64,000 bases of DNA from Acidobacteriota bacterium (GTDB lineage: Bacteria; Acidobacteriota; Thermoanaerobaculia; Thermoanaerobaculales; Thermoanaerobaculaceae), in the NCBI GenBank assembly GCA_016213675.1, contig JACQZW010000039.1, positions 1 to 64,000 on the forward strand, read 5' to 3'. Within the stretch, counting starts at the first letter, position 1. Each line of letters starts with the position of its first letter. The translations under genes were made by a program, and so were the position numbers. Shown here in pieces: positions 10,885 to 61,501 of the stretch. The notes beneath the pieces are model-generated. The model made no database searches and was not told the DNA's origin. It worked only from the letters and a program-made list of their open reading frames with translations.

Positions 10885-10960
10885 CACTCGGACCCGTCGT
10901 CACCAGCGAGCACGCGGGACACCTCGACCGAACGACGGGGCGGGGCAGAGGTTCTCCTCT

Positions 10961-10988
10961 GTCCCCTGTTCCCCGTCCCCCGTCTTCT
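10961..10988. repeat. 7-bp-period array between two convergent genes
   Basis: On the plus strand the bases read GTCCCCT, GTTCCCC, GTCCCCC, GTCTTCT and then CTA, which is the smpB stop codon on the minus strand. The array therefore starts immediately after smpB. It fills the last part of a 104-bp gap with the convergent GT2 gene; the rest of the gap shows nothing recognisable. Confidence 0.75.
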
Positions 10989-19433: not shown

Positions 19434-19468
19434 GGAAGAAGAGGGGACAGGGGACGGGGGACGGGGCC
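19434..19468. repeat. 7-bp-period array after the glycosyltransferase stop
   Basis: Directly after TAG (19431-19433) come GGAAGAA, GAGGGGA, CAGGGGA, CGGGGGA and CGGGGCC. The G-rich strand resembles the smpB-proximal array read in its own coding direction. It lies in the 70-bp gap with the convergent zinc-ribbon gene. Confidence 0.75.
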
Positions 19469-22104: not shown

Positions 22105-23460
22105 TCAGGACCTCCCGGGCGACAGCGGCCCGGCCGAGTGGGGATGGTACAGCGCCTCGTGCTCCTCGAGGGCGAAGCGGTCGCTCATCCCCGCCAGGTG
22201 GTCGACGATGAGGCGGGCGAACTCGGGGCTGTCGTGGTAGTAGCGGTCGACCTCGGTGGGGATCTCCGGGATCGGCACGTCGCGCAGGTACGGCCGCCCG
22301 GTCTCCTCGTGGAAGCGCAACAGCACGTAGGTCGGCAGGGTCAGCGGGTTCGAGTGGTAGGCGGCGAACAACCCGGAGACCACGAGGCGCGCCCGGTGGT
22401 CCTGCCGGTTGACCTCCTGGTGGTTGATGATGAAGCGGTAGATGAACGCCTTGAGGTCGACGAACAGCGGTGCGACCTGACGGGAGAACGTCACGCACGC
22501 CGCCGGGATGCGGTCGGCGATGGCCCGCCACCCCTCGTGGTCGCGGACGCCGAACTTCTGCACCACGCGGGTGACCTGCTTGGCCGTGGTCTGGATCGCG
22601 TCGGTGACGAACAGGTGGATGAGCCCGCGCTGGAGCAGCGACGCCCGGCGGTGGCGGTTGCACTCGCCGGTGTAGCGCTCGCCGGCCCGCTCGATGACCG
22701 CGCGCGCCGCGCCCAGCCGCTCGATCTCCTCCAGCGAGACCGCCTCGGTGTACAGCCCATCCTCGAGGTCGTGCGTCTGCTGGGCGATCTCGTCGGCGAG
22801 GGAGACCACCTGGCCCTCGAGGTGGCAGGGCAGGCCGATGCGCAGCCCCTCCGGCTGCGACAGCGGGAACGGGAAGCGCACCTTCCACGTGGTGTGCTTG
22901 AGGATGCCCTCGCGGACCTGGTCGGTGAGGTTGAGCCCGGGGTGGACGTAGCGCCGCTCGAGGAGGTCGACGACCCTGACCGACTGGTAGTTGTGCTTGA
23001 AGGTCCCGGCCGTGCGGACGACGTTCTCGGCGAGCGGGCAGCCCGGCACCTCGCCGGCGAGGATGCGCGCCAGGACCCGCTCGCCGGAGTGGCCGAACGG
23101 GGTGTGGCCGAGGTCGTGGGCGAGGCCGATCGCCTCGACGAGGTCTTCGTTGAGGCCGAGGGCACGGGCGATGGTGCGGCCGAGCTGCGCGACCTCGAGG
23201 GTGTGGGTGAGCCGGGTGCGCGCGTGGTCGCCGGTGTGCGGGACGTAGACCTGCGTCTTGTGCTTCAGGCGCCGGAAGGCCCGCGAGTGGAGGATCCGGT
23301 CGCGGTCACGCTGGAACGCCGTGCGGTAGTCGAACTGCCGCCCCTCGGCGCGCAGCGGAAGGCGGCGGGTCGCCTCCGTCGAGCGGGTCGCGCAGAACGC
23401 CAGTTGACTCTCTTCGAGTCGCTCCAGCGAGGCCCGGTCGCGAGGGAGGAGCTCGACCAT
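22105..23460 (-). CDS. dgt: Deoxyguanosinetriphosphate triphosphohydrolase-like HD protein
   Basis: 451 residues. The HD core is clear: RTRLTHTLEVAQLGRTIARA supplies the first His, then LAHDLGHTPFGHSGER the His-Asp pair and a following histidine. The longer family-specific region includes FKHNYQSVRVVDLLERRY. Members hydrolyse dGTP, and often other dNTPs, to the nucleoside and tripolyphosphate, shaping the dNTP pool. AAGGTGAC precedes the ATG at 23460, and folC ends 2 bp upstream. Confidence 0.92.
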   Translation of the reverse strand: MVELLPRDRASLERLEESQLAFCATRSTEATRRLPLRAEGRQFDYRTAFQRDRDRILHSRAFRRLKHKTQVYVPHTGDHARTRLTHTLEVAQLGRTIARALGLNEDLVEAIGLAHDLGHTPFGHSGERVLARILAGEVPGCPLAENVVRTAGTFKHNYQSVRVVDLLERRYVHPGLNLTDQVREGILKHTTWKVRFPFPLSQPEGLRIGLPCHLEGQVVSLADEIAQQTHDLEDGLYTEAVSLEEIERLGAARAVIERAGERYTGECNRHRRASLLQRGLIHLFVTDAIQTTAKQVTRVVQKFGVRDHEGWRAIADRIPAACVTFSRQVAPLFVDLKAFIYRFIINHQEVNRQDHRARLVVSGLFAAYHSNPLTLPTYVLLRFHEETGRPYLRDVPIPEIPTEVDRYYHDSPEFARLIVDHLAGMSDRFALEEHEALYHPHSAGPLSPGRS

Positions 23461-23461
23461 G

Positions 23462-24784
23462 TCACCTTTCAGTATGCGCCATCACCTCGCCGACGAGGCG
23501 CAACGAGCCGGTCACGAGGGTGGGGAGGTCCGGCGGGAGCGCCGCGAGAGCCGCCGCGACCGAGGGGAACGGGCGGCCCTCGGGGAAGGCGGCGGCGAGC
23601 CGGTCGACCGGGACCGCCCGCGGCGAGTCGATCGGGGCGAGGAGGACGTCCCGGACGTGCGGACGCAGGAGGTCAGCCATCGCCTCGGCCGGCTTGTCGT
23701 CGAGGCAGGAGAAGAGCAGGTGGAGCCGGCCCGAGAGCCCCATGCCGAGGATCGAGGCGGCGAGCGCCGCGGTCGCCTCGCGGTTGTGGGCGCCGTCGAG
23801 GAGCAGCCTGTGGCCCCGCCACTCGACCCACTGCAGCCGGCCGGGCCAGGTGGTGCCTTCGATGCCCGCGGTGATCGCATCGGCGCGGAGACCCGGAATC
23901 GCGCCGTGCCTGGCCAGCGCCGCCGCCCCGGCGAGGGCGAGGACGAGGTTGTCGAGCTGGTGCCGACCATAGAGCGGCAGCATCGCGTCGCCGGTCGTGC
24001 CCGCCACCGAGAAGGCGACGGACGTGAAGCGGGGGAGAGGGGTGAGTGGTGAGGGCAGAGCAGAAGCAAGGGTTGCAGGATTCGTGCTCTTCCCTCTTCC
24101 CTCTCCCCTCTCGCCTTCTTTCACCGTCGCCCAGTCGGACGCGAGCGAGAGCGGCGTCGACGGGTCGGCCTCGCGGCGGATCACGGCTTCGACCTCGTCG
24201 TCCCAGCGTCCGACGATCGCCTCCTTCCCGCGCAGCGCGACGGCCTTTTCGGCGGCGATGTGGCCGCGGGTCGGCCCGAGCCACGCCTGGTGGTCGGTGC
24301 CGACGTTGGTGAGCAGCGCGACGAGCGGAGTGGTCGCGTTGGTCGCGTCCCAGCGACCGCCGAGCCCGGCCTCGAGGATCGCGAGGTCGACAGCCGCCTC
24401 GGCGAAGCACAGGAAGGCGGCCACGGTCAGCGTCTCGAAGTAGGACAGCGCCGGGAAACGTTCCAAGGTGGCCACCAGCTCCCGCAGCCGGGCGGCCGCG
24501 ATCGGCTCTCCCGCGATGCGGATGCGCTCCTCGACCCGCACGAGGTGGGGCGAGGTGTAGAGGCCGACGCGGAGGCCATGGGCGCGGACGACCGCGTCGA
24601 GGAGGGCGGCGGTCGATCCCTTGCCGTTGGTGCCGACGATCAGCACGGCCGGGACGCGACGCTCCGGGTGGCCGAGGACGTCGAGTGCACGCCGCATGCG
24701 GTCGAGCCCCGGCAGAATCCGCTGCTCCAGCCGGTGCGCGAGCAGCGCGTCGACCGACCCGCCGACCGGGACGTCCTCAGGCAT
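23462..24784 (-). CDS. folC: Bifunctional folylpolyglutamate/dihydrofolate synthase carrying an in-frame repeat insert
   Basis: 440 residues of the Mur-ligase fold: P-loop VGTNGKGSTAALLDA, SPHLVRVEERIRI, LEAGLGGRWDATNAT, TNVGTDHQAWLG, and the C-terminal LLLDGAHNREATAAL. It adds glutamate to dihydropteroate and folates. Between the SLASDWATV and VAFSVAG segments lies an unusual Gly/Glu/Arg- then Pro/Leu-rich stretch of about 35 residues encoded by a 7-bp-period array (24024-24121). The flanking conserved sequence stays in frame, so the gene probably remains functional. accD lies 63 bp upstream, the classic accD-folC pairing. Confidence 0.93.
   Translation of the reverse strand: MPEDVPVGGSVDALLAHRLEQRILPGLDRMRRALDVLGHPERRVPAVLIVGTNGKGSTAALLDAVVRAHGLRVGLYTSPHLVRVEERIRIAGEPIAAARLRELVATLERFPALSYFETLTVAAFLCFAEAAVDLAILEAGLGGRWDATNATTPLVALLTNVGTDHQAWLGPTRGHIAAEKAVALRGKEAIVGRWDDEVEAVIRREADPSTPLSLASDWATVKEGERGEGRGKSTNPATLASALPSPLTPLPRFTSVAFSVAGTTGDAMLPLYGRHQLDNLVLALAGAAALARHGAIPGLRADAITAGIEGTTWPGRLQWVEWRGHRLLLDGAHNREATAALAASILGMGLSGRLHLLFSCLDDKPAEAMADLLRPHVRDVLLAPIDSPRAVPVDRLAAAFPEGRPFPSVAAALAALPPDLPTLVTGSLRLVGEVMAHTER
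24024..24121. repeat. 7-bp-period array inside the folC coding sequence
   Basis: On the plus strand consecutive heptamers include GTGAAGC, GGGGGAG, AGGGGTG, AGTGGTG, AGGGCAG, then after a middle part CTCTTCC, CTCTTCC, CTCTCCC, CTCTCGC and CTTCTTT. The left half is G-rich and the right half C-rich, so the ends are complementary (GTGAAGCGGGGGAGAGG against the reverse complement of CCCCTCTCGCCTTCTTTCAC). About 35 codons would equal 15 heptamers, the kind of length that keeps the frame. Confidence 0.8.
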
Positions 24785-24847
24785 GCGACCGGTGCGTTAC
24801 TGGGGGCGGGGACGCATGGGGAGGCTTGAGAACCGCGCCCTCCGAAA

Positions 24848-25675
24848 TCACGCCAGCATCTGGAGGCATCGGGCCAGGTTCTCCTTGAGTTCCTGGCGCG
24901 GGACGACCATGTCGAGCATGCCGTGCTCGAGGAGGAACTCCGAGCGCTGGAACCCTTCGGGCAGTGTCTGGCGGATCGTCTGCTCGATGACCCGGGGGCC
25001 GGCGAAGCCGATGAGGGCGCCCGGCTCGCCGATGTTGAGGTCGCCGAGCATCGCGAACGACGCGGTGACGCCCCCCGTGGTCGGATCGGTCAACACCGAG
25101 ATGTAGGGCAGGCGGGCGGCGTGGAGCTGGGCGAGGGCGGCCGAGATCTTCGCCATCTGCATGAGCGACAGGATCCCCTCCTGCATGCGGGCCCCGCCGG
25201 AGCACGACACGACCACGAAGGGCAGCCTGCTCTTCAGGCACTGCTCGATGGCCCGTGTCATCTTCTCGCCGACGGCCGAGCCCATCGACCCGCCCATGAA
25301 GGAGTACTCCATCGCGGCGACGATGGCCTTGACGCCGGAGATCCGGCCGGCGCCGACCACCAACGCGTCGCTCCGGGAACCCTTCTCGCGCAGGGCGCGC
25401 AGCCGCTCGGCGTACGGCTTGCTGTCGACGAACTCCAGCGGGTCGGTGGAGAAGATCCGGGCGAACAGCTCCTTCCACCTGCCATCGTCGAAAACCTGGG
25501 CGAGCCGGGTCCGGGCCGACACGCGGTGGTGGAAACCGCAGCGCGGGCAGACGAACAGGCCCCGTTCGAGCTCCTTCTTGTAGAGGATCTCGCGGCAGCC
25601 CTCGCACTTGACCCACAGTCCCTCGGGGACGCGGCTCTTGCGGGTGGGCTCGTCGGTGCGCCGAAACCAGGCCAT
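24848..25675 (-). CDS. accD: Acetyl-CoA carboxylase carboxyltransferase subunit beta
   Basis: 275 residues. A four-cysteine zinc ribbon (C24, C27, C43, C46 in VKCEGCREI and FVCPRCGFHH) precedes the crotonase-fold carboxyltransferase with GSMGSAVGEKMTRAIE, SCSGGARMQEG and GALIGFAGPRVIEQTI. Together with AccA it moves the carboxyl group from biotin to acetyl-CoA, the committed step of fatty acid synthesis. accA is not in the window. A minus-strand TAGATT 9 nt before the ATG suggests its own near-leaderless promoter. Confidence 0.97.
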   Translation of the reverse strand: MAWFRRTDEPTRKSRVPEGLWVKCEGCREILYKKELERGLFVCPRCGFHHRVSARTRLAQVFDDGRWKELFARIFSTDPLEFVDSKPYAERLRALREKGSRSDALVVGAGRISGVKAIVAAMEYSFMGGSMGSAVGEKMTRAIEQCLKSRLPFVVVSCSGGARMQEGILSLMQMAKISAALAQLHAARLPYISVLTDPTTGGVTASFAMLGDLNIGEPGALIGFAGPRVIEQTIRQTLPEGFQRSEFLLEHGMLDMVVPRQELKENLARCLQMLA

Positions 25676-25684
25676 GGGATGCTG

Positions 25685-25690
25685 AATCTA
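25685..25690 (-). promoter_or_regulatory. -10 hexamer TAGATT for accD
   Basis: AATCTA on the plus strand gives TAGATT reading toward accD, 9 nt from its ATG. No Shine-Dalgarno sequence intervenes. Confidence 0.45.
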
Positions 25691-25751
25691 GCATCGGCTC
25701 CGGCTCGGACGCAACCGACGGACGGTGGCGCGCCGCCTCGGCCTGTCTTTC

Positions 25752-26528
25752 TCAGGCCTGCCGTCGAGCGACGATGACGGGTGTTCCGGCCGTCGGCCGG
25801 ATGATCTCGACCTCGACGCCGAACACCTGGCGGAACAGCGTCTCGGTGAGGACCGCGGCCGGCGTGCCGGAGGCGTAGGAGCTGCCGCCGCGCAGCACGA
25901 GCACCTGGTCGGCGAGCTGGAGGGCGAGGTTCCAGTCGTGCAGCACGACGACCGAGGCGACGCCGTCGGCCTGCAGCTCACGCAACGTCTCCACGAAGGC
26001 GAGCTGATGGCGGACGTCGAGCCCGGCGGCCGGCTCGTCGAGGAGGAGCAGCCGCGCCTCGGTGGCGAGGGCGCGCGCCAGGAGCACGCGTTGGCGTTCG
26101 CCGCCGGACAGGCGCTGGACCGGCCGACCTCCGGCCCCGGCGAGTCCGACGCGTGTCAGGGCGGTGACGACCGCCTCGTGATCGTGCGGCCCGGCCGGGC
26201 GCCACGGGCCGAGGTGAGGCGCGCGTCCCTGCTCGACCACCTCGCGGACCGTGAGTGGGAAGGCGAGCTGGACCTGCTGCGGCACCAGGGCCAGCGTCCG
26301 GGCGATCTCCCGCCGGCGCCAGGAGGCCAGGGGGCGACCGAGCAACTCGACGCTGCCCCCGGTGCCGGGCAACACGCCGGCGAGAAGCCTGAGGAGCGTG
26401 CTCTTTCCGGCTCCGTTGGGGCCCAGGATGGCGGTGCAGGTCCGCTCCCGGACCTCGAGATCGACGCCGTGGACGACATCCCGGCCGTCGTATCCGCCGC
26501 GCAGCCCGGCCGCCACCAACAGCGTCAC
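25752..26528 (-). CDS. ABC importer ATPase (BtuD/FecE-like)
   Basis: 258 residues with Walker A ILGPNGAGKST, the Q-loop LVPQQVQLAFPLTVREVV, signature LSGGERQR, Walker B RLLLLDEPAAGLD and the switch His in VVLHDWNLAL. The sequence fits the iron-siderophore/heme/cobalamin class II importers. Its GTG start at 26528 overlaps the permease stop. It powers uptake through the adjacent permease. Confidence 0.9.
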   Translation of the reverse strand: MTLLVAAGLRGGYDGRDVVHGVDLEVRERTCTAILGPNGAGKSTLLRLLAGVLPGTGGSVELLGRPLASWRRREIARTLALVPQQVQLAFPLTVREVVEQGRAPHLGPWRPAGPHDHEAVVTALTRVGLAGAGGRPVQRLSGGERQRVLLARALATEARLLLLDEPAAGLDVRHQLAFVETLRELQADGVASVVVLHDWNLALQLADQVLVLRGGSSYASGTPAAVLTETLFRQVFGVEVEIIRPTAGTPVIVARRQA

Positions 26529-33933: not shown

Positions 33934-34079
33934 GAAGCTGGCTTGAGGCTTGAGGCTTCTTCCAAGCAATCATTCAGCCGTTTCTTGCCGCATTCTCAAG
34001 CCTCGAGTCCCAAGCCCGGGCGGGCGGGTGGGGGAGCCCAAGCCCCAGGTCCCAGCCCGCAACTCCGCGTGGGTGGGGA
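33934..34079. repeat. Long 7-bp-period array filling a convergent gap
   Basis: From the DUF4388 stop (TGA 33931-33933) the bases read GAAGCTG, GCTTGAG, GCTTGAG, GCTTCTT; further on CAAGCCT, CGAGTCC, CAAGCCC; then CAAGCCC, CAGGTCC, CAGCCCG, all in one 7-bp register. The GCTTGAG units at the left are the reverse complement of CTCAAGC units at the right, so the element can fold back. It reaches the ftsX stop at 34080. Confidence 0.82.
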
Positions 34080-35683: not shown

Positions 35684-36412
35684 GTGGGCGAAAACGCAGG
35701 TCCTGACGGTGTTACCGCAGTCCGGCTGGAGAGCGGGCTGGCGCTCTTCGCCGACGCGACCGCCTGCCCCTCGGAGCTCTCGTCGGACGAGCTGGCCGGG
35801 TCTGCCCTTGCAGTCATCCAAGGGCGGGTCGGCCGTCCGGTCGCGTTGCTCCACGGGGACCAGCAGCACACTGCGCTGACCTTCACCTTCGGGGCCGAGG
35901 GCAGCCTCGCCAGCGGGCCGCACTCCGTGGGAGTGTGCGACGCGCTGATCACGGCCGAGCCGGATGTCGCCCTGCTGGTCCGAACGGCGGACTGCCTGCC
36001 GGTCGTGCTGGCCGGCGACGGCGTCGTGGCCGTCGTGCACGCGGGTTGGCGAGGGCTCGCCGCCGACAGTCTCGGCGCGACGACGCGGCGGTTGCGGGCC
36101 GAGTTCGGCATCGAACCGACGGTGCTCGATGCGGTGGTCGGGGTCGGTATCGGACCGTGTCATTACCGTGTCGGAGACGAGGTCCACGTGGCGCTCTCGA
36201 GGCACGCCACGGTGACGGGTACGTGGCGCCGGGGGGATCGGGTCGACCTCGCCGGGTTCGCCCGGAGTCGCCTGCTCGCGCTCGGCCTGCGACCCGGAGC
36301 GGTGACGACCCTGGCCGGCTGCACGGCGTGCTCGCCGCGGCACCACTCGTATCGCCGCGACGGCGCGGGCGGCGGCCGCCAGTGGACCGCGGTGGTACGG
36401 CCTGGGGCTTGA
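35684..36412 (+). CDS. pgeF: Laccase-domain peptidoglycan editing factor PgeF (YfiH family)
   Basis: 242 residues. LLHGDQQHT, then ALLVRTADCLPVVLA, VVAVVHAGWRGLAADSLG, VVGVGIGPCHYRVGDEV and TLAGCTACSPRHHSYRRDG carry the His and Cys ligands of the metal site. Family members act on oxidised purine nucleosides or remove misincorporated serine from peptidoglycan stem precursors. It diverges from ftsE. The final codons (RPGA and stop) already lie within a 7-bp-period array. Confidence 0.92.
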   Translation: MGENAGPDGVTAVRLESGLALFADATACPSELSSDELAGSALAVIQGRVGRPVALLHGDQQHTALTFTFGAEGSLASGPHSVGVCDALITAEPDVALLVRTADCLPVVLAGDGVVAVVHAGWRGLAADSLGATTRRLRAEFGIEPTVLDAVVGVGIGPCHYRVGDEVHVALSRHATVTGTWRRGDRVDLAGFARSRLLALGLRPGAVTTLAGCTACSPRHHSYRRDGAGGGRQWTAVVRPGA

Positions 36413-36498
36413 GGCCTGGGCCTGAAGCCTCGTGGGCCCTGTCTGTCCTCAAGCCTCAAGCCCCAGGTCTCAAGCCTCAGGTCTCAGGCCTCAGGCCC
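36401..36498. repeat. 7-bp-period inverted array containing both convergent stop codons
   Basis: Heptamers run CCTGGGG, CTTGAGG, CCTGGGC, CTGAAGC, then CAAGCCT, CAAGCCC, CAGGTCT, CAAGCCT, CAGGTCT, CAGGCCT, CAGGCCC in one register. CTTGAGG on the left is the reverse complement of CCTCAAG on the right. The pgeF TGA (36410-36412) is within the left arm and the rlmN stop (TCA 36491-36493) within the right arm, so the array also encodes the last residues of both proteins. Confidence 0.85.
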
Positions 36499-61059: not shown

Positions 61060-61448
61060 TGGCAGGGGGTGCGCCGAGCAGGCCGCTCGTGCTGGTCGCC
61101 GACGACGAGCCCAGCATCCGCGAGACGGTGTCATTCATCCTCGAGATGGAGGGCTTCGCGGTGGCCGGGGCCGAGGACGGCGAGCAGGCGCTCGCCGAGA
61201 TCCGGCGACTCCGCCCGCCGGTCGTGCTCCTCGACGGGATGATGCCGCTCCGGGACGGGTTCGACGTCTGCCGGGAGGTGAAGGCCGACCCGGAGCTCGC
61301 CGCGGTCAAGATCGTGATGCTCACGGCGCTCGGGCAGAAGACGGACCGGGAGAAGGCGGTGGCGGCCGGTGCCGACGTCTACATCACAAAGCCCTTCGAC
61401 GAGGACGAGCTGCTGGCGCTGCTGCGAAGGCTCACTGCGGGAAGCTGA
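61059..61448 (+). CDS. Stand-alone response regulator receiver
   Basis: 129 residues. A canonical receiver: VLVADDEPSIRET (acidic pair), VVLLDGMMPLRDGFD with Asp59, KIVMLTALGQ and VYITKPFDEDE with the conserved Lys. No output domain, so it signals by protein contact, like CheY or PilG. Its ATG overlaps the kinase stop (TAATG), making it the natural target of the two upstream kinases. The TGA stop is the first three bases of a 7-bp-period array. Confidence 0.92.
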   Translation: MAGGAPSRPLVLVADDEPSIRETVSFILEMEGFAVAGAEDGEQALAEIRRLRPPVVLLDGMMPLRDGFDVCREVKADPELAAVKIVMLTALGQKTDREKAVAAGADVYITKPFDEDELLALLRRLTAGS

Positions 61449-61501
61449 CAGCCAACGACTGACAGCCAGAAGCCAACAGCCGACAGCTCACAGCTCTCCC
61501 C
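61446..61501. repeat. 7-bp-period array starting at a stop codon
   Basis: TGACAGC, CAACGAC, TGACAGC, CAGAAGC, CAACAGC, CGACAGC, TCACAGC, TCTCCCC: eight heptamers whose first three bases are the TGA of the response-regulator gene. This array follows a gene whose downstream neighbour is co-directional, not convergent. Confidence 0.82.

Follow-up and report, generated by a model that had tools for sequence, protein, structure and literature searches.

Arrays of seven-base units are over-represented in bacteria according to earlier work (PMC4692102), and copies lying in frame within genes bear on how such arrays arise and spread. One such copy interrupts folC in the 64,000-nt stretch of Acidobacteriota DNA analysed here (the window), which is contig C13 of a 4.97-Mb draft genome (95 contigs, 92% complete, 4.65% contaminated). 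What is this insert, and how did it come to lie in the gene? As argued below, it is probably one copy of a dispersed heptameric array family, spread by ectopic copying and tolerated in FolC.

Structure of the folC insert

The folC gene (23462..24784, minus strand) is an ORF of 440 aa for a bifunctional dihydrofolate synthase/folylpolyglutamate synthase. The assignment was obtained by profile (TIGR01499 folC, 295 bits), by sequence (M. tuberculosis FolC 2vor) and by fold: in a Foldseek search with the AlphaFold model 2vor was the top match (E 3.3e-32) and the best PDB matches were FolC/FPGS structures. Both the fold and the Mur-ligase motifs are present, as judged by TIGR01499 and Foldseek. Alignment to 36 relatives, together with the model, delimits a variable, inserted loop of 34 residues (residues 224-257; 24014..24115, minus strand), set between beta strands 219-223 and 254-260, which are both conserved among the 36 relatives. 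The model has a mean pLDDT of 90 and only residues 1-7 and 229-249 fall below 50; residues 229-249 are predicted by AlphaFold to be disordered.

The array lies at 24027-24120, where the reading frame is open and the plus strand is G-rich then C-rich, just as an earlier note on this DNA had described it. Read on the coding strand, the order is GAGAGGGGAGAGGGAAGAGGGAAGAG, a non-periodic spacer and CCCTCACCACTCACCCCTCTCCCCC. Arm 1 (24087..24116, minus strand; TRF and period scan) is G-rich and 7-periodic, with GAGAGGG and GGAAGAG units (CTCTTCC on the plus strand). TRF gave period 7, 3.6 copies and a 94% match for 24087-24112, and a period-7 segment as strong as this arm occurred in none of 60 shuffles of the window. 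Arrays similar to arm 1 are found at other sites of the genome. Arm 2 (24029..24053, minus strand; inverted repeat and RNA fold) is C-rich (CCCTCAC CACTCAC CCCTCTC), loosely 7-periodic and an imperfect reverse complement of arm 1. Between the arms, the spacer (24054..24086, minus strand) is not wholly covered by matches elsewhere in the genome, which cover the arms. The insert as a whole has its self-match peak at period 7 (0.54, against 0.45 or less for other periods from 3 to 21).

The two arms belong to an inverted repeat, I1, with 36-nt arms (24027-24062 and 24085-24120) that are 78% complementary. The predicted RNA hairpin has a free energy of -52.5 kcal/mol (z -6.2), equalled by none of 200 shuffles. 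That the two blocks are inverted hairpin arms had escaped the earlier note, as had the differing heptamers of relatives at this site. Its heptamer array is thus borne out in one arm, where 7-periodicity is clear, and only loosely in the other. Its suggested length of 15 heptamers (105 bp) does not hold: two short arms of about 3.5-4 units each surround a spacer that is not periodic, and, set against relatives without the insert, the site is longer by about 63-69 bp net (21-23 codons).

The folC site in related genomes

The FolC loop measures 34 residues here versus 11-13 in g2, g3 and g4, genera of the same family. The insert is absent from the five FolC sequences of these genera in the alignment, and order- and class-level FolC sequences likewise lack the array. 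The proposal that the array is an insertion is therefore upheld; the same residues in distant homologues, which would have spoken against it, did not appear there. Four Chloroflexota homologues (L033-L035, L037) have long low-complexity insertions of other kinds in this loop, with no period-7 DNA. By comparison with these insertions, the loop seems to be a generally permissive site.

In closer relatives the site is occupied by different heptamers. In the folC genes of G015, G007 and G014, AGTGAAG units are separated by about 27-30 nt of spacer from the AACTCTY units that follow. In G013, AGCTCAC units are accompanied by the inverse CTGTGAG/CTGTCGG, and in G008 GGTCCGG units by the inverse GGACCCC. 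A single GGTCCGG-like arm is found in G010 and G011, and the loop of G005 (g6) has no clear heptamers. From species to species the left arm covaries with the right: the sum obtained with each arm's own partner was reached in 4 of 720 permutations, or in 1 of 24 when the comparison was restricted to four independent types.

When placed on the FolC tree, unit types do not track species. Closely related FolC proteins can carry different ones, as do G011 and G014 (92% identical) and G013 and G010 (83%). The folC DNA of G011 and G014 is 97% identical to the left of the insert, breaks at the insert edge, falls to 83-84% over some 65 codons and is back at 93% beyond them. This mosaic, read from the alignment, fits homologous import of a segment carrying its insert. 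Import into G014 is probably the likelier direction, because AACTCTY dimers are few in this genome (5, one of them in folC) and many in G007 (30) and G015 (38). Unit switching solely by in-place turnover was rejected for this pair, since the downstream mosaic of about 65 codons changed with the insert.

In-frame arrays in other genes

Other genes carry arrays too. In hisF (L072:10212-11072, minus strand), comparison with empty sites revealed a 99-bp insert with two arrays, of the GGGGAGA and GGGACTC families, in direct and not inverted orientation, so that a hairpin is not a general feature of such inserts. It corresponds to loop 140-165 of HisF, left disordered by AlphaFold, and the site is cleanly empty in six relatives (G001, G002, G003, G006, G008, G009). 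The nearest pair with and without the insert is 76% identical in amino acids, too distant for a target duplication to be read. HisF itself was undetected in all g5 genomes (G004, G007, G010-G016) and in G005, and is present in g1-g4 and in G008; histidine biosynthesis may have been lost in g5.

A loop of ArgS contains a four-unit array in g1, in g5 and in one of the two g6 species. In the second g6 species this loop has GACTCTC units, and g2-g4 have none. Between the N-terminal and catalytic domains of ArgS (near residues 115-165 of L042:13964-16336) lies a second, non-heptamer insert, with a peptide like EPGFTPGERGGPGGVAEAGGSGGGPKCPP. It recurs in g1/g5 (L154-L165: G000, G011, G007, G015, G016 and relatives), is partly duplicated in G011, and is possibly another mobile or repeat element.

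Arrays were also found in a DinB-like gene and, in relatives, in the C-terminal tails of RpiB, a BtuF-like protein and AroC (named from sequence, without a family search). These results show that a minority of arrays lie in frame within disordered parts of housekeeping proteins, either loops or tails. They agree with the view of the earlier note that arrays can enter or grow inside genes. They also agree with its view that arrays are not merely decayed terminators, because folC, hisF and argS carry them mid-gene; most intergenic copies still lie right behind stop codons.

Distribution of heptamer arrays

We surveyed about 1.1 Mb of the own genome in stretches (about 22% of it) and found 75 period-7 segments. 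Period 14 gave 48, and every other period that is not a multiple of 3 gave 12 or fewer; periods 6, 9, 12 and 15 are codon-repeat periods within genes. Shuffled DNA yielded 3 period-7 segments in 0.7 Mb. Samples of g5 contained 11 such segments in 138 kb and 26 in 113 kb, and g6 contained 6 in 31 kb, all in G008, with none in the 20-kb sample of G005. Period 7 is the dominant non-coding tandem period in the own genome and in its g5 and g6 relatives. No period-7 segment was detected in the small samples (20-100 kb each) of g2, g3, g4, f2 (another family of this order) and two outgroups at class level. Among the DNA sampled, array abundance is specific to the clade of g1, g5 and g6.

The copy number has its mode at four (34 of the 75 arrays have 4-4.9 copies). 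With regard to G-quadruplex formation, some units contain G runs (GGGGAGA, GGGGTCC) and others none (AGCTGAC, AACTCTT). Contigs C14 (L061:17384-17507) and C17 (L064:1-90) both break in a GGCTTGA array with an identical flank after it; about 17 perfect copies are present at the C14 end, a long heptamer array at which the assembly breaks.

With gene calls from a home-made gene finder (coding fraction 0.86), 51 of the 75 arrays are intergenic. Their start lies within 25 nt of a stop codon in 70% of cases, compared to 37% when positions are drawn at random within the same intergenic gaps. Arrays are held by 14 of 76 convergent, 25 of 268 tandem and 2 of 98 divergent gaps, and fewer than a quarter of those scored (10 of 48) have a clear inverted partner. 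Within the window, two arrays lie between convergent genes, one with CCCCTGT/CCCCGTC units (10955..10984) 4 nt behind a stop codon and one with GGGGACA units (19442..19466) 8 nt behind. In another intergenic array, GGCTTGA units (33940..33958) start 6 nt behind a stop codon and have an inverted partner downstream. An intergenic inverted pair of the CTTGAGG/CCTCAAG family occupies 36399..36497 (TRF, inverted repeat), and an intergenic array of the CAGCCGA/CAGCTGA family (61430..61496) follows a stop codon closely.

A GC-rich palindrome (CGGCCGGCCGCTGGCCGGCC-like, with GTAGCG adjoining) recurs beside heptamer arrays (L062:16880-16930, L062:18040-18090 and L072:2880-2920) and looks like a REP element. 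Genomes with arrays have more genes of Y1_Tnp, the REP-associated transposase family, than those of g2-g4 (G000-G016; p 0.003 per Mb), an excess that we treat as a lead only, array-bearing genomes being also larger. No copying enzyme for the arrays was found. Loss of mismatch repair was rejected as a cause, since MutS domains occur in 16 of 17 genomes, with or without arrays.

Concerted unit change and species dialects

Eight species have four units in the argS array, made of GGACCCC, GGACCAC or GAACCCC/GAGCCCC. Units are more alike within an array (identity 0.90) than at the same position between species (0.80; permutation p 0.00005, with kinship ignored). Between G004 and G011 the flanks are 91-93% identical and the array 73%. 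In these alignments argS units change in concert while their number stays fixed at four.

The units in genes often match those abundant elsewhere in the same genome. G004, whose argS has GGACCAC x4, contains 346 GGACCAC dimers; G008, whose folC and argS have GGACCCC, contains 572 GGACCCC dimers; and AACTCTY is the folC unit in G015 and G007, with the 38 and 30 AACTCTY dimers given above. GGACCAC, GGACCCC and AACTCTY dimers are absent in g2-g4. When the rule was applied out of sample to G012 it failed: this genome is rich in GGACCAC (134), yet its argS has GGACCCC x4. With G012 added, the stratified permutation p for the match between dialect and coding unit, in which kinship is ignored, went from 0.001 to 0.005.

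Origin of the insert

The reading that we prefer, that the folC insert is a copy of a dispersed array family, would imply the following course. An array family, often in inverted pairs, would have proliferated in one clade (g1, g5, g6). Its units would spread between loci by ectopic copying, either conversion-like or transposition-like, and be homogenised by slippage or template switching. Within genes, selection would retain only inserts that preserve the frame and lie in loops, leaving copy number fixed and unit sequence free. The FolC insert would have no catalytic role and would simply be tolerated.

Another account would be purely local slippage, in which a heptamer that arose by chance in a permissive loop is extended by the polymerase with no exchange between loci; according to Rehm et al., earlier work invoked slippage to account for the heptamer excess (PMC4692102). 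The four-unit mode and the 7-bp period fit it (PMC4692102), as does the tolerance of the folC and argS loops to changes in length. However, an identical unit is found at dozens to hundreds of loci per species and is absent in sister genera, the inverted arms covary, and argS, an aminoacyl-tRNA synthetase gene whose frame would be shifted by slippage of one unit, keeps four units while all of them change. We regard this account as unlikely. If a transposable element of MITE or RAYT type, ending in heptamers, had inserted whole into folC and hisF, this could explain why the arms are inverted and match many genome sites, and would be in line with the larger number of Y1_Tnp genes in array-bearing genomes. 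Against it, spacers are unique, neither a constant core nor constant termini are present, many arrays are unpaired (the 10 of 48 above score as paired) and units vary by site, which makes such an element unlikely.

The strong hairpin (z -6.2), and the location of other arrays where terminators lie, might instead indicate a functional RNA element that controls FolC by pausing, processing or premature termination. But five FolC genes of the same family do without the hairpin, and G010 and G011 retain one arm only. Neither a compact GC stem with a T run behind it, as in an intrinsic terminator, nor a promoter was found by scanning 23300-25800, and Rfam matches were limited to generic hairpin families far below gathering scores. 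This role appears quite improbable. That the insert is an artefact (an assembly error, a frameshift or a chance low-complexity linker) is barely credible even for a draft assembly with the contig number, completeness and contamination given at the outset: the frame is open and FolC full-length, the period strength is unmatched in shuffles, and the architecture is shared by several separately deposited assemblies (two also being NCBR01000072.1 and PKYI01000083.1).

Copying from a dispersed array family thus remains the reading that we favor for folC. More tentatively, a process in this clade may copy units between unrelated loci and overwrite whole arrays at constant number, even in argS. The reading frame selects against single-unit slippage in coding arrays, so that concerted unit change would point to length-neutral copying.

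Comparison with known repeats

The STRR heptanucleotide repeats of heterocystous cyanobacteria comprise several heptamer families per genome. The present arrays resemble them in this respect. Heptanucleotides of Calothrix are mentioned by Rehm et al. (2015), who described G-rich heptameric repeats of Xanthomonas (GGGAATC) and Nostoc (GGGGA(C/T)T) (PMC4692102). Those repeats share with ours the seven-base unit, the preference for four units, a mostly non-coding location, proximity to stop codons and scarcity between divergent genes (PMC4692102). Our arrays belong to that class by their excess of tandem heptamers, their four-unit preference and their non-coding, stop-codon-proximal and non-divergent placement. 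Inverted pairs are often seen in the Xanthomonas repeats (PMC4692102) and are clear in 10 of 48 arrays here. In contrast, Rehm et al. describe one unit family per genome, under-represented in coding regions (PMC4692102), whereas the present arrays comprise many unit families per genome, with species-specific units, in-frame copies in conserved enzymes and units replaced at fixed number.

In Geobacter metallireducens, elements of four heptanucleotides (consensus GGACCGG, 49 copies within and between genes) come close to the GGACCCC/GGTCCGG units here: they too are four tandem heptamers, their sequence is nearly identical and some of them lie within genes (PMC2700814). The part of that account available to us proposes a regulatory RNA and, unlike the present work, contains no cross-species comparison of coding unit replacement (PMC2700814). 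TAACTGA direct repeats of Beggiatoaceae, Cyanobacteria and Bacteroidetes are likewise dispersed heptamer arrays with a minority in ORFs, but they have a single unit, lie mostly just upstream of start codons and, when in ORFs, are mainly at protein ends (PMC4679880). Rickettsia palindromic elements are similar as stem-loop DNA of about 100 bp tolerated in frame in conserved proteins, and differ by their 105-146 bp with terminal inverted repeats, while only the heptamer arms recur here and the spacer is unique (PMC2229807). In-frame insertion, as in these elements, holds for folC, hisF and argS, and hairpin formation for folC, the hisF arrays being direct. An element sequence conserved across sites was not found in the genome-wide search, in which arms recur and spacers do not.

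In the open-access papers that we covered we found no earlier account of coding units replaced in concert at a frozen copy number, nor of a conserved gene site that carries differing heptamers in different species. Species-specific units and turnover at fixed copy number inside housekeeping genes look like a new aspect.

Implications

The in-frame copies in folC, hisF and argS provide alignable sites that allow gain, loss, replacement of units and horizontal import to be separated, and in this way address the origin and spread of bacterial heptamer arrays. They show repeats as a route to new disordered protein loops, and the differing repeats of relatives at the folC site are a natural record of how repeats enter and change in working genes. 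If units are indeed copied between unrelated loci at constant number, length-neutral ectopic conversion of microsatellite-like arrays would give each species a genome-wide heptamer dialect of its own.
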